A stretch of 64,000 nucleotides of DNA from Rhodococcus oryzae. GTDB taxonomy: Bacteria > Actinomycetota > Actinomycetes > Mycobacteriales > Mycobacteriaceae. Positions 8,926 to 24,502 of the stretch are shown here, one piece after another. The position numbers were made by a program, and so were the translations under genes. The stretch covers positions 310,001 to 374,000 of the forward strand of contig NZ_SUMD01000002.1 in NCBI RefSeq assembly GCF_005049235.1, given 5' to 3'. Under the pieces are notes generated by a model that saw only the letters and a program-made list of their open reading frames with translations, was not told the origin of the DNA and ran no database searches. Every line of letters begins with the position of its first letter. Within the stretch, counting starts at the first letter, position 1.

Positions 8926-10296
8926 ATGGCTGACGTCGACGTCGACTATTGCGTTGTCGGTGCGGGATTCGCGGGGCTGACGGCGGCGCTGCGGCTCAAA
9001 CAAGGCGGCCAATCGGTGGCGCTGCTCGAGGCGAGGGACCGGGTCGGCGGGCGAACCTTCACAGAAGTGCGCGAGGACGGGTCGTGGATCGACCGTGGCG
9101 GCGCCTGGGTAGGGCCAGGTCAGGACCGGATCTACGCATTGATGGACGAGTTCGGTGTGCCGAGCTATAAGCAGTACACCGACGGCGAGGCCATGATGGT
9201 GGTCGGCGGCAAGCAGCACCGGTACGAGGGCACCATTCCGTTGACGATGAGCCCGTGGGTGACGGCGAATCTCGGTGCTGTCTTCCTGGAACTGGGTTCG
9301 ATGTGTAAGACGATCCCGCTCAACGCCCCGTGGGAGGCGAAGAAGGCCGCCGAGTGGGATCGGATCAGCCTGGCCAAATGGCTGGACGACAACGTCCACT
9401 CAAGGCCGGCCCACGACCTCCTCGAGACGGCGATCGCCGGCTGCTACACCTCGGCAGCCTCGGAGGTCTCGCTGCTCTTCGTTCTGTACCAGATGGCGAC
9501 GGGTGGAGGTCCGAGCTTCGTCCTGGGGGTCAAGGACGCGGCCGAGGACGAGCGACCGGTCGGCGGCATGGGCGCCGTCTACCGGCCGATGGCGGCCGAG
9601 ATCGGGGACGCCCTCCATCTCGGGCAGCCTGTTCGCGATATCGAGCAGGACGGGAACGGCGTGACCGTTCGCTCCCAGAACATGACCGTGCGTGCCCGGC
9701 GGGCGATCGTCGCGGTGCCGCTCGCGATCGCGAGCCAGATCCTCTACGAGCCGATGCTGCCGGTCGACCGCTCCTTCCTGCACCAGCGGATGCCGAGCGG
9801 CGCGATCTTCAAGATCGCGGTCGTGTACGAGGAGCCGTTCTGGCGGGCCGATGGGCTGTCAGGTCAGTCGGCGGCACCCGGCTCCCCCGCCACCATCACC
9901 ATCGACGCCTGCACGGACGCGGCCACGCCCGGGGTGCTGTGCGTCATCGTCGAGGGCCCGATTGCCCGCGAGATCGGGCGCCTCGGCGAGGCCGAACGCC
10001 GCAAGTCGGTCCTCGGCGAGCTCACCGGACGTTTCGGCGACAAGGCCGGCACACCGATCGACTACATCGAGCAGAACTGGTCCGTGGAGCGATACTCCGG
10101 CGGCGCCATGCTCAGCCACGCGCCGACCGGGGTGCTGACGGAGTTCGGCCATGCGCTCCGCGAGCCCTGCGGTCGTATCCACTGGGCGGGCACGGAGAGT
10201 TCGGCGCAGATGTGCGGCTGGGTGGACGGGGCCGTCCGCTCCGGTGAACGGGCCGCGCGCGAGGTGACCGAGCACGACGGGCTGATCCGGGGCTGA
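8926..10296 (+). CDS. Flavin-containing monoamine oxidase family protein
   Basis: A 456-residue FAD amine oxidase. The dinucleotide-binding motif DYCVVGAGFAGLTAALRL is at residues 7-24 and continues into the LEARDRVGGRTFT ribbon; RGGAWVGPGQDRIYAL binds the flavin, and the C-terminal IHWAGTESS...GWVDGAVRSGERAA closes the FAD site. This is the monoamine/putrescine oxidase layout: oxidation of an amine to aldehyde, ammonia and hydrogen peroxide. No signal peptide is seen. It ends 30 bases from the convergent HxlR regulator, and an aldehyde dehydrogenase lies in the island beyond, so it may feed aldehydes to that pathway; this is inference. Start ATG 8926 behind AGGGTG. Confidence 0.85.
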   Translation: MADVDVDYCVVGAGFAGLTAALRLKQGGQSVALLEARDRVGGRTFTEVREDGSWIDRGGAWVGPGQDRIYALMDEFGVPSYKQYTDGEAMMVVGGKQHRYEGTIPLTMSPWVTANLGAVFLELGSMCKTIPLNAPWEAKKAAEWDRISLAKWLDDNVHSRPAHDLLETAIAGCYTSAASEVSLLFVLYQMATGGGPSFVLGVKDAAEDERPVGGMGAVYRPMAAEIGDALHLGQPVRDIEQDGNGVTVRSQNMTVRARRAIVAVPLAIASQILYEPMLPVDRSFLHQRMPSGAIFKIAVVYEEPFWRADGLSGQSAAPGSPATITIDACTDAATPGVLCVIVEGPIAREIGRLGEAERRKSVLGELTGRFGDKAGTPIDYIEQNWSVERYSGGAMLSHAPTGVLTEFGHALREPCGRIHWAGTESSAQMCGWVDGAVRSGERAAREVTEHDGLIRG

Positions 10297-10326
10297 CGAT
10301 GTCCTCTGGCCCGCGCGGTCGGCCCA

Positions 10327-11349
10327 TCAGCGACCGGCGGTCGCCCGCCTGAACTCGGTGTCGGCCCGACGCAAGACGGCATTGCAGGCGTTGCACGTGT
10401 ACCGGGGTTCGAGCAGGTGCTCGCCTGCGTTGTGCACGATGGTCAGGCCGGATCGCCCGTCTTCGGACAGATGCCGCGCCGCCCACGCGTTGAGCGCGGC
10501 GAACACGGGAAAGAAGTCGAGGCTTTTTGGCGTGGTGCGGTATTCGTGCCGCCGCGCGCCATCCGTGATCGGCGTACGGACCAGCATTCCGTTGTCGACG
10601 AAGTAGGCGAGGCGGTCGGTCAGGGTGACCGGCGAGATCGACCCGAGCCGGTTCTGGAAGTCGCCGAACCGGCGGTTGCCCTCGAGTGCGGCGGCGAGCA
10701 GGAAGGTCGACCAGCGATCGGCGAGCACGCTGGTGGAGTCCATCCCCGGCGCGTCACCCTTCGCCGTGCGCCGAGATCGGCGGTCGGCGATGTCGACGAG
10801 GAGCGGCGCGTCGACCTCGGTCCGCACGTCGCGGGCGGTCACCCCGATCGCCGCGCAGCCGGCGCACCCGAAAATCGGCGTGATGAGGTGCCCGCACGGC
10901 AGGTGACGAAGGTGAGTGGTCGGCCGGTCGGGTGCCCACGGTGCCCAGTGGCGGTCCCAACTCCACAACGCGACGAAGGCCAGCCACAGGTCGTCACCGA
11001 GGTCGGTGAGGCGGTACTCGTTGCGCGGCGGCGCGGTCGAATACGGGTGCGCATCGAGGATTCCGTCCTCGATCAGGCGACCCAGACGATGCGAGAGGAC
11101 GGCGTCCGAGATCCCCAGTTCGTCACGTAGTTGCGAAAAGCGCTCGGCGCCGTCGAAGACTGCCCGGATGATCTGCAGATTCCATCGGTCACCCGCGATC
11201 AGCAGGGCGTGCCCCAGCGCGGACGATGCCGGGTGCGTCGGGACTGGGGACATGCCGTCAATCATCGCAAACAGCATGTGGCCGGGAACCGCGGCGGTCC
11301 GGCCCCATTCTCGGACTTTCGGCTTCTCATTAAGAAGTGATATCGGCAT
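10327..11349 (-). CDS. Duplicated HxlR-type regulator with Cys ribbons
   Basis: A 340-residue protein built as two copies of one unit. Copy one (residues about 40-180) has an HxlR winged helix (GDRWNLQIIRAVFDG, FSQLRDELGISDAVLSHRL) and then LPCGH...CAGC, a C-x9-C-x2-C ribbon. Copy two (about 205-335) repeats it (LADRWSTFLLAAALEG, FGDFQNRLGSISPVTLTDRL) and ends YTCNACNAVL, where the first Cys of the ribbon is replaced. Ordinary HxlR proteins are single winged helices of 100-150 residues. The start is probably ATG 11349 behind AGGTG; ATG 11277 and 11253 are alternatives. It is divergent from a thiolase and probably controls it. Confidence 0.8.
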   Translation of the reverse strand: MPISLLNEKPKVREWGRTAAVPGHMLFAMIDGMSPVPTHPASSALGHALLIAGDRWNLQIIRAVFDGAERFSQLRDELGISDAVLSHRLGRLIEDGILDAHPYSTAPPRNEYRLTDLGDDLWLAFVALWSWDRHWAPWAPDRPTTHLRHLPCGHLITPIFGCAGCAAIGVTARDVRTEVDAPLLVDIADRRSRRTAKGDAPGMDSTSVLADRWSTFLLAAALEGNRRFGDFQNRLGSISPVTLTDRLAYFVDNGMLVRTPITDGARRHEYRTTPKSLDFFPVFAALNAWAARHLSEDGRSGLTIVHNAGEHLLEPRYTCNACNAVLRRADTEFRRATAGR

Positions 11350-11355
11350 ACGACA

Positions 11356-11444
11356 CCTATTTCATAGGGGTATGTCCGCGTACCCAACGTTCAACTGTTG
11401 TACCGCTGGTTGATTCACTGATGCACCCAGTTGCGGAAGCAACT
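11356..11444. promoter_or_regulatory. Dyads between the HxlR regulator and the thiolase
   Basis: The 155-base divergent gap is the most AT-rich segment of the island and holds two clear inverted repeats: CCTAT-TTC-ATAGG at 11356-11368, next to the regulator start, and AGTTGC-GGAA-GCAACT at 11429-11444, nearer the thiolase. CAAC and GTTG also pair across eight bases near 11385-11400. These are reasonable operator candidates for the regulator. Confidence 0.45.
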
Positions 11445-11504
11445 ATGGATCTTGTAGTAACGGCAGGCCGTGGCTAACCTGAGATGCGACAACAAGGAGG
11501 AAAG

Positions 11505-12746
11505 ATGACGAACCCCGTGTACGTGCTCGGAGGAGTTCAGACCGACTTCGCCAGGAACTGGTCGAAGGAGGGGCTCGGCCTGGTCGACATGTTTGCCGAG
11601 ACGGTGCCTGCCGCCCTGGCCGACGCGCGAGTGGACGAGCGTGAGATCGGTGTGATCCACGTGAGCAACCTCGCCGGAGAACTCTTCGCGGGCCAGGCCC
11701 AGCTCGGCGGAATGGTGGTCGCGGCCGTGCCGGGCCTCGACGGCCTGCCGAGCACTCGGCACGAGGCGGCGTGTGCCTCGGGCAGCACCGCGATCCTCGC
11801 TGCGTGCGCGGACATCGAGTCGGGTCGATACGACGTGGCGCTGGTGGTCGGGGTCGAGCTGATGCGCAACGTGCCCGCGCAGACTGCCGCCGAGTACCTG
11901 GGTACCGCGGCGTGGGCCGGGCGGGAGGCGCTGGGTGTGAAGTACCCGTGGCCCGCGCTCTTCGCCGACATCGCGGACGAGTACGCACGGCGTTACGGTC
12001 TCGACCACGCACATCTCGGTCGTTTCGCCGAGATCGCTTTCGGCAATGGATCGCGCAATGGTCTTGCGCAGACCAGGGACTGGGACTTCCCGGCTGGGTC
12101 GTTCGACGAGAACGACGAGGTGAACCCGATTGTGGAGGGGATGCTCCGCAAGACCGACTGCGGGCGTATCACCGACGGAGGTGCAGCCGTGGTGCTGGCC
12201 GGGCCGAAGTTTGCGCAGGCGTGGGCGCAGCGGACCGGAGCCGACCTGGACCAGGAGGCCACGATCGCCGGATTCGGCCATCGCACGGCGACGCTGCTGC
12301 TCGCGGACAAGCTCGCCCAGAGTGCCGACCGGGACTATCTCTTCCCGCACCTACGCGGAGCCGTCGACGACGCTTACCGCCGCGCAGGGCTGGATGGGGT
12401 CGCCGATCTGGATCTCGCCGAGATCCACGACTGCTTCACCATCAACGGGCTGGTCACCCTCGAGCACATCGGTCTGGCGGACCCGGGCAAGGGCGGCGAG
12501 GTGGTGATGGACGGTTCGATCGAGCGCGGCGGCCGGCTGCCGGTGAACCCCAGCGGCGGGCTGATGTCACACGGGCACCCGGTGGGTGCCACCGGCGTCC
12601 GCATGGTGCTCGATTCTGCTCGCCAGGTCACCGGCCGGGCGGGGGACCATCAGGTCGAGAACGCCAGGCGCGCCCTCACCGTCAACATCGGTGGTTCGTT
12701 CACGACCGCGGTGGCCACGGTCGTGGTCCGGGGAAGCGGAGCGTAG
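11505..12746 (+). CDS. Thiolase, SCP2-type
   Basis: A 413-residue thiolase-fold enzyme. The nucleophile is C90 in HEAACASGST; HDCFTINGL replaces the NEAF motif of FadA-type enzymes and identifies the SCP2-thiolase branch; GGLMSHGHPVGATG carries the catalytic histidine. Enzymes of this branch cleave or form 3-ketoacyl-CoA thioesters, often with bulky or branched substrates. The start is ATG 11505 after AAGGAGGAAAG, a near-perfect ribosome-binding site; an in-frame ATG 21 bases upstream would consume it. It is divergent from the duplicated HxlR regulator and convergent with the carotenoid-oxygenase operon. Confidence 0.88.
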   Translation: MTNPVYVLGGVQTDFARNWSKEGLGLVDMFAETVPAALADARVDEREIGVIHVSNLAGELFAGQAQLGGMVVAAVPGLDGLPSTRHEAACASGSTAILAACADIESGRYDVALVVGVELMRNVPAQTAAEYLGTAAWAGREALGVKYPWPALFADIADEYARRYGLDHAHLGRFAEIAFGNGSRNGLAQTRDWDFPAGSFDENDEVNPIVEGMLRKTDCGRITDGGAAVVLAGPKFAQAWAQRTGADLDQEATIAGFGHRTATLLLADKLAQSADRDYLFPHLRGAVDDAYRRAGLDGVADLDLAEIHDCFTINGLVTLEHIGLADPGKGGEVVMDGSIERGGRLPVNPSGGLMSHGHPVGATGVRMVLDSARQVTGRAGDHQVENARRALTVNIGGSFTTAVATVVVRGSGA

Positions 12747-12757
12747 CCACGCACACG

Positions 12758-12814
12758 ACGTAGGTCTCCCGGGCGGAGCGGCTCTCGGACCGCCCCGCAC
12801 CGGGAGACCTACGT
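12758..12814. terminator. Long stem-loop between convergent genes
   Basis: ACGTAGGTCTCCCGG (12758-12772) pairs perfectly with CCGGGAGACCTACGT (12800-12814), a 15-bp stem, with an inner GGGCGG/CCGCCC helix inside the loop. TTCTTCT follows on the plus strand. It fills the gap between the thiolase stop (12746) and the converging gene's stop (12819), so it can end transcription from both sides. Confidence 0.8.
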
Positions 12815-12818
12815 TCTT

Positions 12819-14300
12819 CTACGCGCGGGCCTCGGCGAGCTGATCGGCGCGCACCCAGGTGGCATGGAAGCCGGAGGGAACCCGGCGCGGCAGCAGCACC
12901 CGCGCGATCGGTCCCGCCGCGACGTTCTCGGCATCGAAGATGTTGATCTCGCCCTTGTCTTCGGCCTCGTCGTTGACGAAGCAGACCAGGTAGCCGTCGG
13001 TCTCACCCGTCGATCCGTCGCGCGGGGCGAATGGTGCCTCCGAACCCCAACGCCCGGAACCGAACTTGTGCTCTTCCTTGGTGCCCGTCTGTGAGTCGAA
13101 CCGCACGAGCCCGTCGAAGAGCAGGGTCGGCTCGTTGCCGAGACTCATGCTGTACGAGTACCGGTGCGAGCGGCCCATCACACGCGAATCCACGCTGGGG
13201 AACTCGATGTTGGCATTGTCGAGTTCGGTTTCGATGGTGGCGCCAGTACGAAGGTTGAAGCGGTACCGGTAGAGCTGGGCGTCGAGCCGCATGTACGCGA
13301 GCATGTTCGACAGCGGGGAGGCGAAGGTCGTCTGGTGCTGAGGGTTCTTCACCCGGCACACGTCCATGATGATCTCGTCGCCCTCTTCCCACGAATTGAC
13401 CACGTGGTAGATGTAGCAGGGCTTCACCTCGAACCAGCGCACCTCGCTACCGTTGCCGTGGCGGGGAATGACCGCGAATCGAGCGGGAAGATCCTGATCG
13501 TAGAAGATCCGGTACTTGCCTGCCCGGCGCGCATCGTGATCCTGAACCAGCGGCAGATCCATCAGGATCGAGTAGTTCTCGGTGATCCCGATGTCGTGCG
13601 GAAGTCGCGGACCCGGCAGATCGATCTGAGTGAGGTGCGTCTGACGACCATCGGTGCCGATGATGCCGTAACGCAGGAAGTCCTGGTCGGGACCGTAGTC
13701 GAACCAGATCAGTTCGCCGGTGGCCTCGTCGACCTTGGGGTGGGCCATCATGTCCCCGGCAAAGGTTCCCAGGAAGTCCTGTGCACCAAGCGTTTCCAGG
13801 GACAGTGGGTCCACGGCGTAGGGCGTTCCGCAGAGGTACCAGGTCGCCAGGACCTGGCCGCGGTGGTAGATCACGTCGGTATTGGCGGAATCCTTGATCC
13901 CGAGGCCGTGTCCGTTGCCCCACGGATTGTCCTGCGGATTCTCCATCAGACCGGTCCACAGGGCACGGCCCGCCTCGGACTCATCCTGGAAGGCCTTGGT
14001 CTGGACGTACCGATTGCGGTACCGCACCTTCCCGTTCTCGAAGTGTGCGGCATGGATCATGCCGTCGCCGTCGAACATGTGATAGCGGCCCGGTGCCTCG
14101 AACTGCCGGTTCGGGCCGTTGCGGAGGTACACACCGTTGAGGTCCTTGGGGATCTCACCGATGACGGTGAGATCGTCGAGGGTGAGTTCGTCGTGGACCG
14201 GCGCGAACACCCCGAGGGTGTACGGATTGTCGTCGGTGGCGTCGACCGGGCGAGCGACGGCGATGGGGTCGCCGTTCGCGCGCGGCTGGGTGGAAGTCAT
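12819..14300 (-). CDS. Carotenoid-oxygenase-family dioxygenase
   Basis: A 493-residue enzyme of the carotenoid cleavage dioxygenase/RPE65 family (seven-bladed propeller). All four iron-binding histidines are readable: H187 (MAHPKVD), H235 (LPHDIGITE), H299 (YHVVNSWEEGD) and H479 (GFHATWV); GVYLRNGPN and MFDGDGMIHAAHF are the usual N-terminal blades. Bacterial members cleave carotenoids, apocarotenoids, stilbenes or phenylpropenoids such as isoeugenol at a C=C bond, giving aldehydes. Which of these is used is not visible. The ATG at 14300 overlaps the stop of the PaaI gene (ATGA), so it is the last gene of a five-gene operon that also encodes an aldehyde dehydrogenase, ligase and thiolase. Confidence 0.88.
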   Translation of the reverse strand: MTSTQPRANGDPIAVARPVDATDDNPYTLGVFAPVHDELTLDDLTVIGEIPKDLNGVYLRNGPNRQFEAPGRYHMFDGDGMIHAAHFENGKVRYRNRYVQTKAFQDESEAGRALWTGLMENPQDNPWGNGHGLGIKDSANTDVIYHRGQVLATWYLCGTPYAVDPLSLETLGAQDFLGTFAGDMMAHPKVDEATGELIWFDYGPDQDFLRYGIIGTDGRQTHLTQIDLPGPRLPHDIGITENYSILMDLPLVQDHDARRAGKYRIFYDQDLPARFAVIPRHGNGSEVRWFEVKPCYIYHVVNSWEEGDEIIMDVCRVKNPQHQTTFASPLSNMLAYMRLDAQLYRYRFNLRTGATIETELDNANIEFPSVDSRVMGRSHRYSYSMSLGNEPTLLFDGLVRFDSQTGTKEEHKFGSGRWGSEAPFAPRDGSTGETDGYLVCFVNDEAEDKGEINIFDAENVAAGPIARVLLPRRVPSGFHATWVRADQLAEARA

Positions 14301-14830
14301 GCCTGCTCCGTTTCGGTGTTGCTGTGTACAGGTCGAGAAGTTGAATGTTGTTGCGGTGCTGAGGGGTACAGGACCATCTGAGTGCAGCGGAAGAGCGCGA
14401 TCGCCTTCCCGGCGCTGTCGCGGACGGTGGCGTCCCACAGCTGCGTGCGCCGCCCACTGTGGACGAGGGTCGCCTCGACGGTGACCGTGCCGGACCGCGC
14501 GGTGCCGAGATAGTTCGTCTTGAGTTCGAGTGTGGTGAATCCAGATGCCTCGGCGGGCAGCGCCAGCCGTGCGCCGACACCGCACACGGTGTCGGCCAAT
14601 GCCACGACGGTGGCCGCGTGCAGATATCCGTTCGGTGCCAGCAGTTCCTCGCGAACGCGCAGTTCGCCGGTGACCTCCGACGCCGACGCCTCGAGGATGC
14701 GCATGCCGACCAGGCCAGGGAACCGCCCGTCCAGCATCGCCGTCATCTCGTCGGCGATGGGTCGGCCGGACCCGGTCGGTGTCTCGCGTGGCCTGCCGAC
14801 CGGTGCACCGTCGCCATCCGGTGATGCCAT
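14297..14830 (-). CDS. PaaI-type hotdog thioesterase
   Basis: A 177-residue hotdog protein. NGYLHAATVVALADTVCG (about residues 67-84) is the PaaI motif with the HAA variant of HGG and the catalytic aspartate in ALADT; the C-terminal 25 residues are a polar tail. Expected role: releasing CoA from dead-end or aryl/acyl-CoA intermediates. The start ATG 14830 lies two bases after the stop of the ligase gene, and its own stop overlaps the dioxygenase start, so expression is coupled on both sides. Confidence 0.82.
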   Translation of the reverse strand: MASPDGDGAPVGRPRETPTGSGRPIADEMTAMLDGRFPGLVGMRILEASASEVTGELRVREELLAPNGYLHAATVVALADTVCGVGARLALPAEASGFTTLELKTNYLGTARSGTVTVEATLVHSGRRTQLWDATVRDSAGKAIALFRCTQMVLYPSAPQQHSTSRPVHSNTETEQA

Positions 14831-14832
14831 TG

Positions 14833-16572
14833 TCAGCCGACCTTCTCGACCGCGCCGCGAATGTCGCGCCGCTGCAGCTTTCCGATCGGGTTCCTGGGAA
14901 GCTCGTCGACCGTCACGATCCGTTCCGGCAGCTTGAACGACGCCACCTCCTTCGCGCGCAGGAAGTCCACGAGGTCCTCGAGTGCGACCCCGTCGCTGGT
15001 GGCGGGAACAACTACCGCACAGCACTTCTCGCCGAGGACGTCATCGGGGTACCCGACGATGGCCACATCGGCGACGGCGGGGTGGTCGATGAGAATCCCC
15101 TCGATCTCGGCAGGAGCGATGTTCATGCCTCCGCGGATGATGATCTCCTTGCTGCGGTCGACGAACTTGAGGTACTCGCCGTTGTCCCCGCAGAGCTCGA
15201 AAATGTCTCCACTGCAGAGGTATCCGTCCTCGTCGAACGGGCTCGATGCCGCGGTTCCCTCCAGGTAGCCGGCGAAGATCGTCGGTCCCTTCAGCCGGAG
15301 CTCGCCGCGTCCGCCGACCGTGGTGACCTGTTCGCCGGTCGCCAGGTCCACCAGGCGCACCGAGGTGCGCTCGGCCACGTCGGTGGCCCACGACCTGTCC
15401 GGTGCGCCGTAGTTCGGCAGGTACTCTGCGCGGATCAGCGGGTCGGGCGTGTCAGACGGGGCGCCGAGCAGGCATACTCCCTCGTTCGAGCCGAAGAAGT
15501 TGAGCACCTCGACACCGAGCGAGTACTGCCAGTCGCGCACCACACCGGGGGGCAGCGGGGCGCCACCCGAACCCACCCGGCGGAGCGCGGACAGGTCGTA
15601 TGCGGTCCGAAGGTCCTCCCGCTGCAACAGCATGGTGAGAATCGCGGGCGGCATGCTCGTGTGGGTGACGCGGTAGCGCTGGAGCTGATCGAGATAGACG
15701 GCCAGGTCCAGCGGGTGGTGGTGGACCACGTGACCGCCGCCGAGCAGCCACGGCAGCAGCGAGGTCGCGAACCCGGCCATATTGACCATCGGGAACGGGT
15801 TGAGCATGACCGTTGCCTCGTCCGTCTCCAGTCCGTCCTGAACCGCCTGCCCGACCGCGATCCAGTCACCGTGACACCGGGGCACGCCCTTGGGTGCCGC
15901 CTCGGTGCCGCTGGTCCAGCAGATCGTGATGCAGTCGTTCACCGATCGGGGCAGCGCCGCGTAGGCGCGACGCGCGGCATCGAGCGATCCGTCGGTGGCG
16001 GGGGCGGCATCCAGCGGTCGGCCACTGTTCGACGAGGGCGGGCCGAAGGTGAACACGGTGCGCAGGGAGGGCAACTCGCCGATCAGGCCGAGCGCCTCCT
16101 CGGACGGCGACCGGTCGCCGAAGCTGTTGACGGTGACAACCGCGACGGCCGCAGCGGATTCGACGATCCGCGTCAGTTCGTATCGTCGGTACGAGGCCGG
16201 CATCGGGGCCGCGATCGCTCCGAGGCGCCACAGCGCGAAGTAGGTCGCGGTCAGGGCGACGGAGTTGGGCATCAGCACGGCAACGACATCGCCGGGACCG
16301 ATTCCCGACTCGTGCAGCTTCGCAGCCAGGTCATCGACGCGTGCGTCCAACTCCTGCCATGTCAGTGACTCCGGCTCGATCCCGCACAGCGCGGGCAGGT
16401 TCGTTGGATCGGTCACCGCCGGGGCGCCTCCGCGGCTCCGGACCTGGCCGTCGAGGAGGTCCAGCACGGTCAGCGGCGACCACCAGTGGTGTTCGAGGTA
16501 GTCGTCGACACGGCTGTCGGGATGGCACGGGCGTAAGCGGTTGGCGGAGGGGCCTTCCGGGAGGGCGTTCAT
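14833..16572 (-). CDS. AMP-forming acyl/aryl-CoA synthetase
   Basis: A 579-residue ANL-superfamily ligase. The phosphate-binding loop is CWTSGTEAAPKGVPRCHG, then FFGSNEGVCLLG (A5 region), SGDIFELCGDNGEYLKFVDR and RGGMNIAPAEIE (A8 hinge), and the catalytic lysine in NPIGKLQRRD near the C-terminus. It should activate a carboxylic acid to its CoA thioester with ATP. The long N-terminal section (about 45 residues before the first conserved block) is usual for cyclohexanecarboxylate/aryl-CoA ligase-like members. ATG 16572 follows AAAGGACGCC. Third gene of the operon; probably activates the acid made by the aldehyde dehydrogenase. Confidence 0.88.
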   Translation of the reverse strand: MNALPEGPSANRLRPCHPDSRVDDYLEHHWWSPLTVLDLLDGQVRSRGGAPAVTDPTNLPALCGIEPESLTWQELDARVDDLAAKLHESGIGPGDVVAVLMPNSVALTATYFALWRLGAIAAPMPASYRRYELTRIVESAAAVAVVTVNSFGDRSPSEEALGLIGELPSLRTVFTFGPPSSNSGRPLDAAPATDGSLDAARRAYAALPRSVNDCITICWTSGTEAAPKGVPRCHGDWIAVGQAVQDGLETDEATVMLNPFPMVNMAGFATSLLPWLLGGGHVVHHHPLDLAVYLDQLQRYRVTHTSMPPAILTMLLQREDLRTAYDLSALRRVGSGGAPLPPGVVRDWQYSLGVEVLNFFGSNEGVCLLGAPSDTPDPLIRAEYLPNYGAPDRSWATDVAERTSVRLVDLATGEQVTTVGGRGELRLKGPTIFAGYLEGTAASSPFDEDGYLCSGDIFELCGDNGEYLKFVDRSKEIIIRGGMNIAPAEIEGILIDHPAVADVAIVGYPDDVLGEKCCAVVVPATSDGVALEDLVDFLRAKEVASFKLPERIVTVDELPRNPIGKLQRRDIRGAVEKVG

Positions 16573-16606
16573 GGCGTCCTTTCGTGCAGTGGTCTGGGGT
16601 GGCGGG

Positions 16607-17803
16607 TCAGCGGAGACGGCGGATGACGACGGCGGCGCCGAGCCCGAGCGCTGCCGGGATGGTCACCAGGGCGTACTCGCCGTCGATGCGGGCGAGCTGG
16701 TCAAGGGCGTTGACGAGGAGGGCACCACCGCCCGCGCCCAGGGGGTGACCGGTGGCGAGAGATCCGCCGAGCGGGTTGACCCTGTTCGGATCGAGCCCCA
16801 GCTCCCGGGTCATCACCAGGACGGACGCGGCAAAGGATTCGTTCGCCTCGATCACGTCGAGCTGTCCGGCGGTGATCCCCGCGTTCTCGAGGGCACGCCT
16901 GGAGGCGACAACGGATGCCGTGAGCAGCGGCGAGCGCACGGCGGCCTGGGCTACGCCCACCACTTCCGCGATCGGCGCGCGGCCGAGCCGATCGCGGGCG
17001 GAGGAGGACCCGAAGACCGCCATCGCCGCACCATCCGCCATCTGCGGTGCGGTGGCTGCGGTGTGCAGCCCGCCCTCCGGCCGACCGACGGCGGGCAGAC
17101 GCATCGCCACCCGGCTCCACGACGGATCCTCCCCGAACAGGGGCGCGAGTCCGGCGAGTGATTCGAGGCTGATGTCCGGTCGGGGCCCCTCGTCCGAGCC
17201 GAGGATCGTGGTGGCGCCCGATCGGACCGGGATCACCGACTCGGACGGCGGGGCCGCGGCGGCACGGCGGTGAGAGGTCACCGCATATTCGTCGAGATCT
17301 GTTCGGGTAAACCCGTATTCGGCTGCGGTGAGGTCGGCGGAGACTCCGATGGTCACGTAACCCGTGCGGTCGCCGAGCTCCTCGTCGCCGAGGAAGGCCG
17401 GCCGGTCGGACAGCATCGGCACCCGCGACATCGACTCGACACCACCGGCGACGACGACATCGGCGATGCCGGACGCCACCTTGGCCGAGGCGGACTCGAT
17501 CGCGTCCAGCCCCGAGCAGCACAGTCGCGAGACCACGCCTGCGCCGACCTGGTCCGGCCAGCCAGCCCAGAGCACGGCGGTACGCGCGATGTCGCCGCCC
17601 TGGTCGCCGACGGCCGTGCTGGTGCCGACGATGACGTCGTCGACCGTGTCAGTGGGCAGTCCGCGTTCCTGCAGGGCGGACAGCAACTGGGCGAGGAGTT
17701 CGTGTGACGGTACGTCGGCGAACGTGCCGCCCTGGCGCCGGACCCGCGCCTTAGGGGTGCGAACGGCATCGTAGATATAGACGCCAGATGTGAACTGGGA
17801 CAT
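16607..17803 (-). CDS. FadA/PcaF-type thiolase homologue lacking the second cysteine
   Basis: A 398-residue thiolase-fold protein. The nucleophile C95 is in SRLCCSGLDAIESA (usually NRLCGSG), the NEAF-type motif is ANESFAASVL, and H353 is in GGSLATGHPLGAGG. The general-base cysteine should lie exactly 30 residues after that histidine in a C-x-G loop; here position 383 is proline, in YALVTIPAALGLGAAVV. The enzyme may therefore be slow, work in another direction, or use another base. The start ATG 17803 follows AAGGGGAG and lies two bases after the preceding stop. Second gene of the operon. The fold is certain, normal thiolase activity is not. Confidence 0.82.
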   Translation of the reverse strand: MSQFTSGVYIYDAVRTPKARVRRQGGTFADVPSHELLAQLLSALQERGLPTDTVDDVIVGTSTAVGDQGGDIARTAVLWAGWPDQVGAGVVSRLCCSGLDAIESASAKVASGIADVVVAGGVESMSRVPMLSDRPAFLGDEELGDRTGYVTIGVSADLTAAEYGFTRTDLDEYAVTSHRRAAAAPPSESVIPVRSGATTILGSDEGPRPDISLESLAGLAPLFGEDPSWSRVAMRLPAVGRPEGGLHTAATAPQMADGAAMAVFGSSSARDRLGRAPIAEVVGVAQAAVRSPLLTASVVASRRALENAGITAGQLDVIEANESFAASVLVMTRELGLDPNRVNPLGGSLATGHPLGAGGGALLVNALDQLARIDGEYALVTIPAALGLGAAVVIRRLR

Positions 17804-17805
17804 GG

Positions 17806-19467
17806 TCACTCCCCTTCGATCTGGCGACGATCCTGGACGATGCGAAAACGCCCGGCGATGAAGGACTCGTCGGTGAGGGTCGCATTGCCTGCAGGGTTGA
17901 GGCCGGTGACGTGGTAGTCGCTGTAGGCGGCCGCGAACTGCATGGGCATCGAGGACACCAGATTTGCCGACAGGGAGGCCCCGGCATCGGCGTATGCGTC
18001 CGCCACCTCGTCGATGACGGCGTCGTCGGTGCAATAGAGGTACGAGCTGATCGCGCCGTGACTGCGGACGCTCGCGGTCGCGTGCTCCACCGCGGACGCG
18101 GTGTCGGCGGCGTCGACGAGGAACGCGACCGGGCCGAACTGTTCGCCCTCGGGAAGGGTGTCTCCCCGGCGTGGGTCGACCCTGATGACCAGCGGGGTCG
18201 CCGCCCGGGCCTGGGGGTAGTCCGGATGCGCGTACGGCAGTGGCCTGCGGACCAGGGTCCCCCTCGCCTCGGCCGCGTCGGCGAGCGCGGTGATCGAGTG
18301 CAGCGTCGCGTCGGACTGCAGCGCGCCGCAGACGGCACCGGCGCGGCGAGGTGCGCCTGCCAGATCGTCGATCGCCGCGAGGAGCGCGGTGATGACGTCG
18401 TCTCGTGCGATCACACCCTCGTCCGTGCGCACACCGGCGTCCGGGATGTAGATGTTCTGCGGAGTGGTGCACATCTGACCACTGAAGAGCGAGAGACCCC
18501 CGGCGAGCGTCCGCATGGCTGCTGACAGGTCGGAAACAGAGTCCAGGACAACGGTGTTGACGCCCGCGGTCTCGGTGAACACCAGGGTGTTCGGGACGTT
18601 TCGTTCCAGCCACGACCCGAACGTGGGGCTGCCGGTGAAGTCGACGATCCGCACCTCGGGGCTGGTCGCCAGCTGCCCCGCGACCGGGGCGTCCGCGGTG
18701 TCGACGACCAACTGAACGGCGTCGGCAGGCAGCTGCGCCTCGGCCAGCACCTCGCGGATCACGCGAACCGCGAGCGCGGTCGCGAGCACCGAGCGGGGGT
18801 GCGGCTTGACGAGAACCGGATTTCCCGTCGCCAGGTTCGCGAGGATCGCCGGGTAGGCGTTCCATGCAGGGAACGAGGCGCAGGCGACGACGAGTGCGGT
18901 GCCGAGCGGGCGGGCGCGGAATCGCTTCCGCAGCGTCACATCCGACTTGCCGAATCGCTGCTGCCACGTCACGTGTCCTGGCACCCGGGTCATGGCCGAC
19001 CAGGCCATCGCCACGGCCTCAAGACCGCGGTCGAGCGCATTGGTCCCACTTCCGCTGCAGGCCATGTTGAGGCTCTGCCCTGTGGTGTGTGCGGTGACGG
19101 CCGCGAACTCCTGGCCGCGCTGGTGGATCCGGTGCAGTACCTCGAGGCACACGCCGACCCGACGCTCGACGTCGGCGTCGCGGAGGGCGGTGGCCGCGGC
19201 TGCCGCACCCACCAGCGCCTCGTCAACGGAGGGCGCGCTGTAGCTGACGTTGAGCGCCTTCGCGGTGTACGGCGAGATCTCGTCTGCGGTGATCACCGAG
19301 TCCGTGGGAGACGAAAGCGTCAGGGTGGCACCGTCGTAGGTGCCGAGGATGGCGTCGGCCTGCGCGGCGTCGGGCGGGGCGATGGGCGCATAACCGGTCC
19401 ACGCGGTGCGGGTGCGGTTGGCCTCTGTCGCTGCCTGCAGCAGTTCGAGGTGGGTTTCGAAGAACAT
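17806..19467 (-). CDS. PaaN-type aldehyde dehydrogenase
   Basis: A 553-residue aldehyde dehydrogenase of the PaaN group: MFFETHLELLQAATEANRTR opens it as in that family, FTETAGVNTVV carries the catalytic glutamate and GQMCTTPQNIYI the catalytic cysteine; VVACASFPAWNAYPAIL and NLATGNPVLVKPHPRS form the cofactor site. PaaN proteins are annotated in phenylacetate catabolism, with incompletely known substrates. In this context it probably oxidises an aldehyde made by the carotenoid-oxygenase-family enzyme (inference). Start chosen at ATG 19467 because the family motif begins there; a TTG seven codons upstream is also in frame. First gene of the operon, 182 bases after the regulator. Confidence 0.85.
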   Translation of the reverse strand: MFFETHLELLQAATEANRTRTAWTGYAPIAPPDAAQADAILGTYDGATLTLSSPTDSVITADEISPYTAKALNVSYSAPSVDEALVGAAAAATALRDADVERRVGVCLEVLHRIHQRGQEFAAVTAHTTGQSLNMACSGSGTNALDRGLEAVAMAWSAMTRVPGHVTWQQRFGKSDVTLRKRFRARPLGTALVVACASFPAWNAYPAILANLATGNPVLVKPHPRSVLATALAVRVIREVLAEAQLPADAVQLVVDTADAPVAGQLATSPEVRIVDFTGSPTFGSWLERNVPNTLVFTETAGVNTVVLDSVSDLSAAMRTLAGGLSLFSGQMCTTPQNIYIPDAGVRTDEGVIARDDVITALLAAIDDLAGAPRRAGAVCGALQSDATLHSITALADAAEARGTLVRRPLPYAHPDYPQARAATPLVIRVDPRRGDTLPEGEQFGPVAFLVDAADTASAVEHATASVRSHGAISSYLYCTDDAVIDEVADAYADAGASLSANLVSSMPMQFAAAYSDYHVTGLNPAGNATLTDESFIAGRFRIVQDRRQIEGE

Positions 19468-19563
19468 GGGCGCTCGTTCCTGTGTCAACAGATTGTGGCG
19501 AGATCAGGCAGTCATCGGGGTGGGTGTGCGGACGAGGGCGATCGTCCGCTTTGCCCGATCTAA

Positions 19564-19581
19564 CTACTATTATTGAAGTGA
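19564..19581. promoter_or_regulatory. Operator-like motif upstream of the aldehyde dehydrogenase operon
   Basis: Read on the minus strand the site is TCACTTCAATAATAGTAG. It matches the site at 21896-21913 at 14 of 18 positions, with an identical ACTTCAATAA core and GTAG end. It lies 97 bases upstream of the operon start, in an AT-rich patch of the 182-base gap. A shared regulator, most simply one of the two duplicated HxlR proteins, would explain it. Confidence 0.5.
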
Positions 19582-19649
19582 ACCAGCACACACAGCGGGT
19601 TGTCAACGGTCGACGATGTCGGACCGTTCGAGGGTGAGAGTTGCTTCGG

Positions 19650-20591
19650 CTAGCGCGGGAGCCGAGCGCCGAACGGAAACGGCTCGAAGCGCACGGACGT
19701 GCGTTTCAGCCTGGCCTCGCATCCGCGGCACCGCAGCGCCGGGAGCAACCAGGAGCCGCAGTCGTGGTGGCGGATCTTCGGACCGAGCGGGAGTGCGCCG
19801 GGGTGCGCGAGCTCTGTCCAGGACAGCAGGAAGGCGAAGATCGGGAACAATCCCCTGCCTCGCGGGGTCAGCACGTACTCGCGGCCGCCGCCGTGTTCGG
19901 CCCGGGTGAGGATCTGCACTTCGGACAGCCGTCCCAACCGCTCGGTGAGGGTCGTCGGCGAGATGCTCAGGATCGACTGGAACTCGCCGAAGCGGCGAAC
20001 CCCCGACAGCGCCAAGCCCGTGACCATGGCGCTCCAGCGGTCGCCGATCGCCTCCATGACCTCGGTGAACTGCAGGTCGGCCCGGCTCACTGACGGGGCG
20101 GTGCGTGTCGACCGCCTTCGCCCGCCCCGTGCCACGAGGACCAGAGATTCGCGGTCCAGCTCGAGCCGCGCATCGCGCGTACCGACGGCGCCGCCGCAGT
20201 GCCTGCACATCATCGCCGGTGGTCCCCGGTGGCCGCAGTCGATGTGCACCAACTCGGGTTGCAGCAGCCCTTCCGGGGACCACTCGCGCTGCCATGCCCA
20301 CACGCTGGCCAGGATCTCCCAGGTCGCCAGGCCGAGCTCGGTCAGCAGGTAGTCGTGGCGGTCGCCGCCGTTCGGCTGCGGCCTGCGTTCCATCAGGCCC
20401 GCCTCGACCAGCGCGTTCAGTCGTGCCGTCAGCATGGCGGGCGGAGCGCCGGTTCGGTCGATCCACTGGCTGAAGCGGCGCACGTGATCGACGAAGACCT
20501 CGCGCAGGATGGCAAGGGTCAGCCGGTCGCCGAGCAGGTCGATCGTCTGGGCAACCGGACTCGGAGGTGCGGCGGCGCCGGGTTCGGCCAC
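19650..20591 (-). CDS. Second duplicated HxlR-type regulator with Cys ribbons
   Basis: A 313-residue protein with the same double architecture as the regulator at 10327-11349. Copy one has LLGDRLTLAILREVFVDH, FSQWIDRTGAPPAMLTARL and IDCGHRGPPAMMCRHCG; copy two has IGDRWSAMVTGLALSG, FGEFQSILSISPTTLTERL and HHDCGSWLLPALRCRGCE. Both ribbons keep C-x9-C-x2-C, a likely metal site. The start is GTG 20591, eight bases after GGAAGG; another GTG nine bases upstream overlaps that site. It follows the third thiolase on the same strand by 53 bases and precedes the aldehyde dehydrogenase operon, so it probably regulates both. Confidence 0.8.
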   Translation of the reverse strand: MAEPGAAAPPSPVAQTIDLLGDRLTLAILREVFVDHVRRFSQWIDRTGAPPAMLTARLNALVEAGLMERRPQPNGGDRHDYLLTELGLATWEILASVWAWQREWSPEGLLQPELVHIDCGHRGPPAMMCRHCGGAVGTRDARLELDRESLVLVARGGRRRSTRTAPSVSRADLQFTEVMEAIGDRWSAMVTGLALSGVRRFGEFQSILSISPTTLTERLGRLSEVQILTRAEHGGGREYVLTPRGRGLFPIFAFLLSWTELAHPGALPLGPKIRHHDCGSWLLPALRCRGCEARLKRTSVRFEPFPFGARLPR

Positions 20592-20644
20592 GTCACCCAC
20601 CTTCCGGTACTGCCTGTGACGATCGCGTCCCGCGGATCGCTTGT

Positions 20645-21838
20645 TCAGGCCTCCAACACAATAGCGATGCCCTGTCCCACGCCGATGCACGCAGCCGCGA
20701 CCCCGATGCCCCCGCCGAGTCGGCGGAGATGGCGCAGGCAGTCGACCACCATTCGGGCCGCCGACGCGCCGATCGGATGACCAAGGGCGATCGCGCCGCC
20801 GAAGGGGTTGACGCGATCGACCGGGATGCCGGGGAGTTCACGCAGGCAGGACAGCACCATCGCGGCGAATGCCTCGTTGAGCTCGAGCACTCGAACGTCG
20901 GCGAGCTCGAGACCCGCTCGGTCCAGGGCCTTTGCGATCGCGGAGACGGGCGCCAGCGCGAACTTGTCGGGTTCGGTGCCGACGACCGCGGAGGCCAGCA
21001 CCCGGCCGAGCGGTTCGACGCCGAGCTCGTCGGCGACGGCTCCGGTGCCGACCAGCGCCGCGACCGCTCCGTCGCTGATCGGGGACGAGTTCCCGGCGGT
21101 GACGCTGCCGCCGCTCGAGAAGGCCGGCCGCAGGGTGGCCAGGGTGGCGGCATCGGTCTCCCGGATGGGTTCGTCGCGGTCGAGGGTCGGGTGCGGCATC
21201 ACGAAGCCGTCGTGCACGCCGTCCGTCCACGCCCGGCCGGCCAGCTCGTGTGACCGAAGCGCCCATTCGTCCTGCTCGAGGCGGCCGACGCCCAGCTGCT
21301 CCGCCACCAGTTCCGCGGATCTTCCGAGCGACTCGACCCAGGCCGCGGGAAATTTGGGGTTCGGCATGCGCCACCCGACGGTGGTGGGGATCAGCTCCAT
21401 CGATCGCGGGAACGCGGCGTCCACGGGCGGGAGCACGTACGGTGCGCGGCTCATGCTCTCCGAGCCGCCTGCGATCGTGATCTCGGCGTCGCCGACCGCG
21501 ACGCGCCTGACCGCGGACAACACCGCCTCGGCGCCGGAGCCGCACAGCCGGTTGACCGACACCCCCGGAATCGTGTGCGGAAGCCCCGCGAGCAGCAGCG
21601 CCATCCGGGCCACGTTGCGGTTGTCCTCGCCCGCGCCGTTGGAATTTCCCCAGACGACATCGTCGATGCGGCCCGGATCGAGCGCGGGGTGCCTGCGGAC
21701 CAGGTCGGCGATCGGAAGCGCGGCCAGGTCGTCGGCCCTGACGCGCGAGAGCGCCCCGCGGGCCGCGCCGAACGGGGTTCGGACGGCATCGATCACCCAC
21801 GGCGCGCGACGGTCCGACGGGGAAAGGCTCTGGGTCAT
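20645..21838 (-). CDS. Thiolase (acetyl-CoA acyltransferase, PcaF/FadA type)
   Basis: A 397-residue thiolase with a full catalytic set: C99 in VNRLCGSGAEAV, LNEAFAAMVLS, H354 in GGAIALGHPIGAS and C384 in AACIGVGQGIA, the last two exactly 30 residues apart. It should cleave a 3-ketoacyl-CoA to acetyl-CoA and a shortened acyl-CoA; the sequence resembles the PcaF/PaaJ group that acts on 3-oxoadipyl-CoA, though the substrate cannot be fixed. Start ATG 21838 after GGAGGAGTCCCC. Divergent from an acyl-CoA synthetase across 92 bases that contain the operator-like motif. It is the only FadA-type thiolase in the island with both cysteines. Confidence 0.9.
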   Translation of the reverse strand: MTQSLSPSDRRAPWVIDAVRTPFGAARGALSRVRADDLAALPIADLVRRHPALDPGRIDDVVWGNSNGAGEDNRNVARMALLLAGLPHTIPGVSVNRLCGSGAEAVLSAVRRVAVGDAEITIAGGSESMSRAPYVLPPVDAAFPRSMELIPTTVGWRMPNPKFPAAWVESLGRSAELVAEQLGVGRLEQDEWALRSHELAGRAWTDGVHDGFVMPHPTLDRDEPIRETDAATLATLRPAFSSGGSVTAGNSSPISDGAVAALVGTGAVADELGVEPLGRVLASAVVGTEPDKFALAPVSAIAKALDRAGLELADVRVLELNEAFAAMVLSCLRELPGIPVDRVNPFGGAIALGHPIGASAARMVVDCLRHLRRLGGGIGVAAACIGVGQGIAIVLEA

Positions 21839-21895
21839 GGGGACTCCTCCTGTGCGGTCGGGTGCGGCCCTTGCGGAATCTCGCCCGCCTGTTGT

Positions 21896-21913
21896 CTACT
21901 TCAATAACTGTAG
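21896..21913. promoter_or_regulatory. Operator-like motif in the divergent thiolase/ligase promoter
   Basis: CTACTTCAATAACTGTAG: an imperfect dyad with CTAC and GTAG arms around ten bases. The ligase ATG is 18 bases downstream and the thiolase start 58 bases to the left, so a bound protein could affect both. Shares 14 of 18 positions with the minus-strand site at 19564-19581. Confidence 0.55.
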
Positions 21914-21930
21914 CGAATGGAAGGAGCCTC

Positions 21931-23490
21931 ATGTCGATAGCCGACGTGCTTCGTACCGCGGCCGATCGGTACGGGCCCGCGATCGCGATCGAGGACAGCT
22001 GCAAGTCTCGAACGTTCACCGAACTCTCCGACCGGGCACACGCGCTGGCCGGGGCCCTCGATGACCTCGGCCTCGCAGTGGGGAGCCGGGTCGTCGTCCT
22101 GCTCGGCAACGCCGTCGAGGCGGTCGAGGTCGATCTCGCGCTGGCGATCGGCGGCTTCGTCCGGGTCGCTCTCAATCCGCGCGTCGGATCTCTGGATTGG
22201 GAACGCGTTGTGCACGACTGCGCGCCAGACGCGCTGATCGTCGACCCTCGGATCGCGGGCGCGGCCGAGTTCACCGCCCGGACGCTCACCCCGACAGTGA
22301 TCACCGTCGACGGGACCTCGTCGACCCTGCCGTCGCTCGACGAGTTGGCGACCGGAGCCGCCCGTCACGCTGCGATTCCTACGCCTGAGCCGGATTCGCT
22401 GTGCGCGTTGCACTATTCGTCCGGGACAACCGGGGTACCGAAGGGCGCCCAGCGGACCCACGCGAACCGGCTGGCTTCGCTGCGCGCGATGCGCGACCAG
22501 GTGCTCGCAGGCACCCTCGACGGCGCCGAGCCGGCGGTGTTCCTGCATGTAGGCCCCGTCATTCACACCAGCGGGCTCTTCGTGCTGCCGTTCCTCGAGG
22601 CCGGTGGACGACAGGTGCTGCTCGATCACATCGGCCCGGCGGGTCTGATCGACGCCGTCGAGGCCCACGCCGCGACCCACACCGCGCTGGTGCCCACGGT
22701 CATCGCCCGGCTGCTGGACTTCGACGACGACCGGCTGTCGGTGATGCGGCGCATGCGCATGCTCGCGTATGCGGGCGCACCGATGCCGGTCGAGCATGTC
22801 CGGCAGGCATACCGCCGCATCACGCCCAATCTCGTTCAGTACTACGGGATGGTCGAGGCGATCCCGCCCCTGACCGTGTTGACCGCGGCGGACCACCGCC
22901 GCGGCGTGCTCGAGAACCCCGACCTGCTCGGCTCGGTGGGTCGGGCCTGCCCGGAGGCGGACATCGTCATCCGCGATCTCGGCGATGCCGTCCCCAACGG
23001 GGAGGTCGGCGAGCTCGTCGTCGCAGGCCCCGCGGTCAGCCCGGGGTATCACAATGCGGGCACGCGAACGGATCTGGGCAAGAGCCATGTCGACGGCGTG
23101 CTCTACTCGGGCGACCTCGGCTACCGCGATCAAGACGGTTACATCCATCTGACCGGCCGCAGCAAGGACATGATCATCACCGGCGGATACAACGTTTATC
23201 CCCGCGAGGTGGAGGAGGCGATCTCCGCGATCCCCGGGGTCGACGATGTCGTCGTCGTCGGGCTGCCAGACGAGGTGTGGGGGCAACGCATCGTCGCCGC
23301 GTACACATCGACCGCCGACGCGGGGGTCGACGAGGGCGTCGTGCTGGCGGAGAGCCGCAGGCGGCTGCCCGACTACAAACGCCCCAAGGCCGCGCAGTGC
23401 GTCGACCGTCTCCCGTTGACCGCGCTGGGAAAGGTGGATCGGGCGGCGGCCGCCGAGCTGCTCGGCGCCCTGGGCCGTACCGCATCGTGA
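21931..23490 (+). CDS. AMP-forming acyl-CoA synthetase
   Basis: A 519-residue ANL ligase: LHYSSGTTGVPKGAQRTH is the phosphate loop (about residues 163-180), YYGMVEAIPPL the A5 motif, YSGDLGYRDQDGYIHLTGRS and KDMIITGGYNVYPREVEEAI the A7-A8 region, and TALGKVDRAAAAEL the C-terminal catalytic lysine. It should make an acyl-CoA from a free acid and ATP. It belongs to the FadD/long-chain ligase-like branch and differs clearly from the ligase at 14833-16572, so the two likely act on different acids or at different steps. ATG 21931 follows AAGGAGCCTC. Followed after 46 bases by the nitronate-monooxygenase-family gene. Confidence 0.9.
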   Translation: MSIADVLRTAADRYGPAIAIEDSCKSRTFTELSDRAHALAGALDDLGLAVGSRVVVLLGNAVEAVEVDLALAIGGFVRVALNPRVGSLDWERVVHDCAPDALIVDPRIAGAAEFTARTLTPTVITVDGTSSTLPSLDELATGAARHAAIPTPEPDSLCALHYSSGTTGVPKGAQRTHANRLASLRAMRDQVLAGTLDGAEPAVFLHVGPVIHTSGLFVLPFLEAGGRQVLLDHIGPAGLIDAVEAHAATHTALVPTVIARLLDFDDDRLSVMRRMRMLAYAGAPMPVEHVRQAYRRITPNLVQYYGMVEAIPPLTVLTAADHRRGVLENPDLLGSVGRACPEADIVIRDLGDAVPNGEVGELVVAGPAVSPGYHNAGTRTDLGKSHVDGVLYSGDLGYRDQDGYIHLTGRSKDMIITGGYNVYPREVEEAISAIPGVDDVVVVGLPDEVWGQRIVAAYTSTADAGVDEGVVLAESRRRLPDYKRPKAAQCVDRLPLTALGKVDRAAAAELLGALGRTAS

Positions 23491-23536
23491 ACTCACACAA
23501 GCACTTACACCGACAGCACCCAATAGAGGAACCATC

Positions 23537-24502
23537 ATGACCGACTCTTTCCTGTCCACCCTGCGCCTGCCGGTCGTCGCGGCACCGATGTTCCTGGTGT
23601 CCGGCCCGGAGCTCGTCACCGCTGCCTGTACCGCCGGCATCGTCGGCTCCTTCCCGACGCAGAACTGCCGCACCGCGGCGGACCTCGACACCTGGATGGG
23701 ATCGATCACCGATCAGCTCCGCGCGGCCGAGGCCGCCGCGGTCCCGGTCGCCCCGTGGGCGGCAAACGTGATCACCCACAGCAGCAACGCCCGGCTCGCT
23801 GACGACCTGCGCCTCATCGCCGAGTACAAGCCGCAGATCGTCATCACCGCACTCGGATCCCCGAAGCCCGTGATGGACATCGTCAAGGGATACGGCGGCA
23901 CGGTGATCGCCGACGTGGTGAACCTGCGCCTCGCGCGCAAGGCCGCCGACGCGGGCGTGGACGGCATGGCCTGCGTGTCGGCGGGCGCAGGCGGACACAC
24001 GGGCCACCTGTCGCCCTTCGCGTTCACCTCTGCCGTGCGCGAGTTCTTCGACGGGATGATCATCATCGGGGGCGGCATCAGTGACGGTCACGGTGTCGCG
24101 GGTGCGATCACCGCAGGCGCCGACCTCGTTTACATGGGTACCCGGTTCCTGGCGGCCGCAGAGAGCATGGCCGCGGACGGGTACAAGCAGATGGTCGTCG
24201 ACCACGGTCCCGACGACCTCGTGGTCAGCTCCGCGATCACCGGCACCCCGGCCTCCTGGCTCAAGCCCAGCCTCGCTGCCTGCGGACTCGATCCCGACAA
24301 CCTGACGCCGCCGATCGGGGAGAAGAACTACACCGCCGGTGCGGAATCGATGAAGCGATGGAAGGACGTCTGGGCGGCCGGCCAGGGGCTCGCGCCCATC
24401 CGCGGGATCGAACCGGTGAGCACGATCGTCGAGAGCATCGAGAAGGAGTACGTCACGGCGTTGCAGCGGTCGAGTCGGTTGATCGCGACGGCAGTGCGTT
24501 GA
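23537..24502 (+). CDS. Nitronate monooxygenase-family FMN protein
   Basis: A 321-residue TIM-barrel flavoprotein of the 2-nitropropane dioxygenase/nitronate monooxygenase family. LPVVAAPMFLVSGPELVTA opens the barrel, SAGAGGHTGHLSPFAF is the phosphate/FMN loop, and IIIGGGISDGHGVAGAITAGADLVYMGTRF (in part) the second FMN site. Members oxidise alkyl nitronates, and relatives include FabK enoyl reductases and other poorly known flavoenzymes, so a redox step on a CoA intermediate is also possible. ATG 23537 after AGAGGA. Probably co-transcribed with the upstream synthetase; together they form the rightward arm of the island. Confidence 0.82.
   Translation: MTDSFLSTLRLPVVAAPMFLVSGPELVTAACTAGIVGSFPTQNCRTAADLDTWMGSITDQLRAAEAAAVPVAPWAANVITHSSNARLADDLRLIAEYKPQIVITALGSPKPVMDIVKGYGGTVIADVVNLRLARKAADAGVDGMACVSAGAGGHTGHLSPFAFTSAVREFFDGMIIIGGGISDGHGVAGAITAGADLVYMGTRFLAAAESMAADGYKQMVVDHGPDDLVVSSAITGTPASWLKPSLAACGLDPDNLTPPIGEKNYTAGAESMKRWKDVWAAGQGLAPIRGIEPVSTIVESIEKEYVTALQRSSRLIATAVR

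Follow-up and report, generated by a model that had tools for sequence, protein, structure and literature searches.

Tandem-HxlR regulators with conserved H-C-C-C ribbons, linked to a catabolic gene cluster and a candidate operator in Rhodococcus oryzae

Introduction

Winged-helix regulators of the DUF24/HxlR family, among them HxlR, YodB, HypR, CatR and QsrR, are single-unit homodimers in which an N-terminal cysteine detects oxidants, quinones and formaldehyde (PMC6798810, PMC6943732, PMC7835342). Here we describe two regulators of Rhodococcus oryzae that share the winged-helix fold and the Pfam model PF01638 with these proteins, but carry the HxlR unit twice in one chain and lack the N-terminal sensor cysteine. 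Both are encoded in a stretch of 64,000 nucleotides (RefSeq assembly GCF_005049235.1, contig NZ_SUMD01000002.1, positions 310,001 to 374,000 of the forward strand; hereafter the window), and positions are counted from its first letter unless a contig position is given.

Two other systems come close. PA1607 (PDB 2F2E) and PA1374 (PDB 4GCV) of Pseudomonas aeruginosa combine an HxlR winged helix with a C-terminal extension, as does each unit of the regulators described here, but they have one unit per chain and, in the aligned part, a serine in place of the first cysteine of the ribbon. FAsor, an engineered HxlR-cpYFP-HxlR fusion (PMC7835342), holds two HxlR units in one chain and keeps its effector response; unlike the tandem regulators, it is man-made, with identical units, a fluorescent-protein linker and no ribbon.

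From the domain architecture of the two proteins, its conservation, one old duplication, linkage to a catabolic gene cluster and a promoter motif conserved in that cluster, we infer that they probably act as single-chain pseudo-dimer repressors of the cluster, with the ribbons holding structural zinc.

Results

Domain architecture of the two regulators

The regulators and their parts were placed in the window as follows, with the basis of each assignment (ORF, open reading frame).

10327 to 11349, minus strand: first tandem-HxlR regulator (P0001, 340 aa); ORF, Pfam, genome search
10942 to 11196 (contig 320942 to 321196), minus strand: HxlR winged helix 1 of the first regulator; genome-wide domain search, Pfam
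10855 to 10905, minus strand: ribbon 1 of the first regulator, HLPCGHLITPIFGCAGC, complete; sequence, alignment
10462 to 10728 (contig 320462 to 320728), minus strand: HxlR winged helix 2 of the first regulator; genome-wide domain search
10384 to 10434, minus strand: ribbon 2 of the first regulator, with Gly in place of the first Cys, HNAGEHLLEPRYTCNAC; sequence, alignment
19650 to 20591, minus strand: second tandem-HxlR regulator (P0002, 313 aa, GTG start); ORF, Pfam, genome search
20274 to 20537, minus strand: HxlR winged helix 1 of the second regulator; genome-wide domain search
20196 to 20246, minus strand: ribbon 1 of the second regulator, HIDCGHRGPPAMMCRHC; sequence, alignment
19812 to 20048, minus strand: HxlR winged helix 2 of the second regulator; genome-wide domain search
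19719 to 19769, minus strand: ribbon 2 of the second regulator, HHDCGSWLLPALRCRGC; sequence, alignment

A preliminary description of the window had read both proteins as an HxlR winged helix plus a cysteine ribbon, repeated twice. This layout and the two ORFs were confirmed: PF01638 matched two stretches in each regulator (E 2.9e-36 and 7.9e-25; 123.6 and 87 bits; curated cut-off 20.8 bits), and a genome-wide search listed all four HxlR domains of the window separately, each above the cut-off. With two units per chain, both proteins depart from the single winged helix per chain of the HxlR family. They align co-linearly from end to end, with 34% identity over 299 columns (E 1e-47). Residues 1-40 of the first regulator were predicted to be disordered and had no counterpart in relatives, and its start codon is therefore uncertain. 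The NCBIfam models of the RrpA/RrpB redox regulators were rejected as an assignment, with scores of 58.5 and 46.8 bits against a cut-off of 175, and of 32 and 25.8 bits against 185.

PA1607 and PA1374 were the best matches to each unit both in sequence (phmmer) and in fold (Foldseek), and the match of 2F2E to the second regulator extended over 156 columns for a chain of 142 residues. AlphaFold2 models of the two regulators were compact and of high overall confidence (pTM 0.78 for the first and 0.85 for the second), with the ribbons mostly at pLDDT above 90; the input alignment for the first regulator consisted of window and genome proteins only. A covalent pseudo-dimer, as suggested earlier, is the most natural reading of the duplicated unit, with a putative dimer geometry.

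Conservation of the ribbon

The preliminary description had given the ribbon as C-x9-C-x2-C. That pattern is real and conserved, but the motif is fuller: in an alignment of 26 tandem regulators (hereafter doubles) it reads H-x2-C-x9-C-x2-C, and its histidine is invariant too. Numbered on the second regulator, His116, Cys119, Cys129 and Cys132 of ribbon 1 and His275, Cys288 and Cys291 of ribbon 2 are invariant, and the ribbon columns are among the best conserved of the alignment. The complete H-C-C-C set is present in 66 of the 70 half-units of doubles, a frequency well beyond chance (35/35 first ribbons and 31/35 second ribbons; one of the four incomplete second ribbons belongs to a frameshifted record). 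Three of the four window ribbons retain all cysteines, as was first noted, the exception being ribbon 2 of the first regulator. Here the missing cysteine is a glycine and a histidine stands two residues further on; a relative 57% identical to this regulator retains the cysteine. Compensation by such a histidine in ribbons short of the cysteine is possible but unproven, for complete ribbons, too, often have a histidine there (CGH).

That the ribbon should be peculiar to the doubled layout was not borne out. The full pattern occurred in 37 of 58 single-unit HxlR stretches taken from relatives and a phylum-wide sample, so that single-unit actinobacterial proteins (singles) combine winged helix and ribbon as the doubles do, and a near version was found in a single-unit protein of the same genome (C23:351845). 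The ribbon also matches the C-terminal extension of PA1607 and PA1374. It is a common part of HxlR proteins that the Pfam model does not include.

As in zinc ribbons and knuckles, four putative Cys/His ligands are conserved within a predicted short beta hairpin, with short strands predicted at the ribbons. The best match in the profile library, to the rubredoxin-like zinc ribbon profile zf-ChsH2, was weak (one ribbon, 13.1 bits, below the cut-off). The H-C-C-C pattern is typical of a structural zinc site. Singles whose neighbours are different carry the ribbon too, and a site of this kind, with zinc as its putative ion, is the best interpretation of it. The regulators could instead be metal sensors in which zinc or another ribbon metal sets DNA binding, and both the invariance of H-C-C-C in the N-terminal ribbons and the weak zf-ChsH2 match would suit this. 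We nevertheless consider a metal sensor very improbable: the neighbours are catabolic, none of the identified ones being a gene for a metal transporter or a chelator, and PA1607 and PA1374 possess the extension without the first ribbon cysteine in the aligned part, so the fold needs no metal.

Loss of the sensor cysteine

The DUF24 sensor cysteine was defined as the residue 13 positions before the conserved tryptophan of helix 2. It was present in 45 of 52 singles, as against one of 35 N-halves and one of 35 C-halves of doubles, and in none of the four window units. Redox sensing, which the preliminary description had raised as a possibility, is weakened by this result and, in its classical form, unlikely. 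Since the sensor cysteine has been lost in both halves, the known thiol switch cannot operate here, and the canonical DUF24 type (YodB/HypR/CatR/QsrR) was excluded.

A different switch could use the ribbon cysteines, which are the only cysteines in the units of either regulator: aldehydes or quinones made by the oxygenase of the neighbouring cluster would attack them, eject the metal and release the repressor. Members of the HxlR family sense electrophiles and formaldehyde through cysteine (PMC6798810, PMC7835342), and the cluster contains oxygenase and aldehyde dehydrogenase genes. The family's known sensor, however, is the very residue that both halves have lost, and the C-terminal ribbon of the first regulator is itself short of one cysteine. 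The ribbon is, moreover, equally conserved in singles that have no RPE65-family oxygenase gene nearby, so it looks structural rather than like a sensor for the pathway. A thiol or electrophile switch in the ribbon thus appears unlikely to us, and we prefer to regard the ribbon as a structural zinc site.

Distribution and origin of the doubling

The doubling is uncommon: full-length doubles were found in 12 of 247 genomes in a class-wide search and, at full coverage, in 4 of 247 genomes of a phylum sample. They also occur on plasmids of Cupriavidus, Bradyrhizobium and Sinorhizobium, where they are annotated merely as helix-turn-helix proteins; phages gave only distant matches. Sequence and fold searches of the PDB returned no solved structure with two HxlR units per chain, and a search of open-licence papers gave no description of a tandem HxlR protein, of an HxlR protein with this ribbon or of an HxlR regulator of a carotenoid oxygenase cluster, nor anything relevant on PA1607. 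The earlier statement that no example had been described thus holds for open-licence papers and the PDB, but the layout recurs in the class and on plasmids of Proteobacteria.

A tree of half-units placed 27 of 30 N-halves in one clade (support 99/89) and the C-halves of the same proteins in a second (100/97 without and 88/89 with the Cupriavidus rows), while singles fell outside both, save one truncated or degenerate double. The tree was built from 109 half-units and only 142 columns, and its deep forks are tentative. The separation of N- and C-halves into two clades means that the halves have long been different and have travelled together. By this phylogeny, one old fusion would explain most of the tandem-HxlR family, across Actinomycetota and Cupriavidus, while the Bradyrhizobium/Sinorhizobium pair and the protein at locus L024 seem to have arisen by fusions of their own.

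Nocardia proteins share 90-91% identity with the second regulator, as against 82-83% for that of the sole same-genus carrier among five genomes, which suggests horizontal transfer of the cluster. Three tandem-HxlR genes lie within about 27 kb in one genome (G389, loci L157/L158) and within about 13 kb in another (G475, L159), all amid cluster genes. Locus L075 may encode another tandem regulator, to judge by part of a ribbon unit, HVGCGDRFSPRFSCNEC, at its edge near base 50-200, about 6 kb from the known one.

Linkage to a catabolic gene cluster

The genes that accompany the two regulators in the window are listed below.

11484 to 12746, plus strand: SCP2-type thiolase (NCBIfam PRK06289-like); a ribosome-binding site suggests ATG 11505 as the true start
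12819 to 14240 (approximate start), minus strand: RPE65-family (carotenoid-cleavage-like) oxygenase
14297 to 14900 (approximate start), minus strand: 4HBT thioesterase
14833 to 16572, minus strand: AMP-forming acyl-CoA ligase A
16607 to 17767, minus strand: acetyl-CoA acyltransferase (thiolase B)
17806 to 19488, minus strand: PaaN_2-like aldehyde dehydrogenase, scoring just under the NCBIfam cut-off
20645 to 21838, minus strand: PcaF-like thiolase C, whose gene opens the operon of the second regulator
21862 to 23490, plus strand: AMP-forming acyl-CoA ligase B, probably starting in fact at the ATG near 21931
23537 to 24502, plus strand: nitronate monooxygenase (NMO) family protein, part of the conserved cluster

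Linkage was assessed through the RPE65 gene. In 61 related genomes it lay within 10 kb of 11 of 15 doubles and of none of 90 singles (Fisher 5e-12). Nine further genomes gave the same picture, eight with a double within 10 kb of an RPE65 gene and the ninth with 24 kb between the two on the same contig. Singles differ from doubles in their neighbourhood, as they do in having one unit and in mostly retaining the sensor cysteine.

Loci of Nocardia, Prescottella and Rhodococcus share one gene order: thiolase C, regulator, PaaN, thiolase B, ligase A, thioesterase and RPE65, from which ligase B and NMO diverge. The version in other Nocardia is shorter, and on Cupriavidus plasmids RPE65, ligase, NMO and thiolase genes surround the double regulator. 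Common to Actinomycetota and these plasmids is a cluster (window 8926 to 24502) of RPE65-type oxygenase, SCP2-type thiolase and CoA ligase, often with NMO and PaaN-like dehydrogenase; it was seen at loci L073-L088, L120, L122, L131-L135 and L154-L163. At L085 (Prescottella defluvii SampleD3_15) the whole cluster is frameshifted many times, most likely a pattern of sequencing error. A flavin amine oxidase gene at 8926 to 10296, convergent with the first regulator, encodes a protein near the solved bacterial monoamine oxidase 8p84 (E 3e-105); this gene was not found beside other tandem-HxlR regulators.

Enzymes of the RPE65 family act on stilbenes, phenylpropenes or apocarotenoids, in which they cleave C=C bonds. 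The PaaN, thiolase and CoA ligase genes point to catabolism of a side chain or an aromatic acid. A search of open-licence papers gave no match to a catabolic cluster of carotenoid oxygenase, thiolase and CoA ligase.

A candidate operator in the cluster promoters

Three candidate operators were located in the window.

11442 to 11457, minus strand: CTACAAGATCCATAGT, between the divergent first regulator and SCP2-type thiolase
19564 to 19579, plus strand: CTACTATTATTGAAGT, upstream of the PaaN-like gene
21898 to 21913, minus strand: CTACAGTTATTGAAGT, in the divergent promoter of thiolase C and ligase B

In ten related loci the intergenic DNA around the second regulator has diverged except for a block, CTACA-GTTATTGA-AGTAG, in the thiolase C/ligase B promoter, of which a sister copy stands before the PaaN gene; the block is conserved over 11 loci. 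The strict motif CTACNNTTATTGAAGTR, with at most two mismatches, had just two matches in the 5.37 Mb genome, precisely these two sites, which flank the second regulator's operon (for a similar pattern at three mismatches, shuffling gave an expectation of 0.25 in the window). A looser form, CTACA-N8-AGT, was found between the first regulator and its divergent thiolase as well, and most other loci have it in the promoter of a thiolase, RPE65 or regulator gene; it had 22 matches in 455 kb of loci, whereas the reversed pattern had 6. A further 191 kb of loci, retrieved once the motif had been fixed, gave 12 matches versus 4 for the control, and 10 of these 12 sites lay at most about 110 bp upstream of a cluster gene, gene starts being approximate as they were taken from tblastn. 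The unfixed positions are biased as well, with a pyrimidine at position 7 in 24 of 25 sites and a purine at position 12 in all.

The candidate sites are imperfect dyads, in which a CTACA half faces an unlike AGT half. A fully palindromic CTAC-N10-GTAG was rejected as a general operator, being too strict and fitting exactly at the ligase B site only. A perfect inverted repeat, AGTTGC-TTCC-GCAACT (11435 to 11450), overlaps one end of the candidate operator that separates the first regulator from the thiolase, and was seen in the window only. Three copies of a related motif, ACTTCAATATRTGAAC, lie around the regulator in Cupriavidus. By sequence, a conserved candidate operator is thus present in the promoters of the linked genes, as would be expected for a repressor of neighbouring operons.

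Proposed mode of action

In the mechanism that we propose, the two fused HxlR winged helices would pack like an HxlR homodimer, and each half would recognise one of the two dissimilar parts of an 18-bp site (CTACA-N8-AGT and its flanks) in the cluster promoters. The regulator, bound near the transcription start, would block transcription until released by a compound of the pathway, probably the substrate or an acyl-CoA intermediate, while the H-C-C-C ribbons would each hold a structural zinc ion. In the engineered HxlR-linker-HxlR protein, joining two units in one chain did not abolish the response to the effector (PMC7835342).

The candidate sites often lie 10-75 bp before start codons, a position that favours repression. 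The regulators might instead be activators like Bacillus subtilis HxlR, whose affinity for DNA rises when it meets its effector and which activates hxlAB (PMC7835342), and some candidate sites do stand 100-235 bp upstream of the next gene. Most, however, are nearer to the start codon than a usual activator site, and only 17 bp separate the ligase B site from the likely start codon of that gene; activation is in our judgement an unlikely mode of action.

Several observations weigh against repression by a single-chain pseudo-dimer with zinc ribbons. The first ribbon cysteine is missing from one C-terminal ribbon of the window and from three other C-terminal ribbons. For four of the 15 doubles no RPE65 gene lies within 10 kb, and two of the genomes concerned lack one altogether. 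CTACA-N8-AGT was not found at L125, L126, L128-L130, L134, L137, L159 and L162, and the Cupriavidus motif, though related, is different. The tandem protein could dimerise further, the pseudo-dimer geometry being a prediction, and an 18-bp site would suit an ordinary dimer too.

Discussion

The units of the tandem-HxlR regulators are familiar and their assembly is a new variation on them; the link to one operator and one type of cluster is the most useful result. Taken together, the data allow a broader and more tentative proposal, which we hold to be possible: a distinct, ancient family of asymmetric single-chain HxlR repressors, whose diverged halves read unlike half-sites, may be dedicated to an undescribed RPE65-thiolase-CoA-ligase pathway that, along with its regulator and a related operator, was transferred between Actinomycetota and Betaproteobacteria.

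The known picture of HxlR regulators is that of symmetric homodimers that sense through one cysteine. A natural single chain, with that cysteine lost from both of its diverged halves, provides a clean case of a homodimeric repressor turning asymmetric. In addition, the regulator, the operator and the linked genes delimit a conserved catabolic cluster, and the operator motif offers a handle for finding its substrate.

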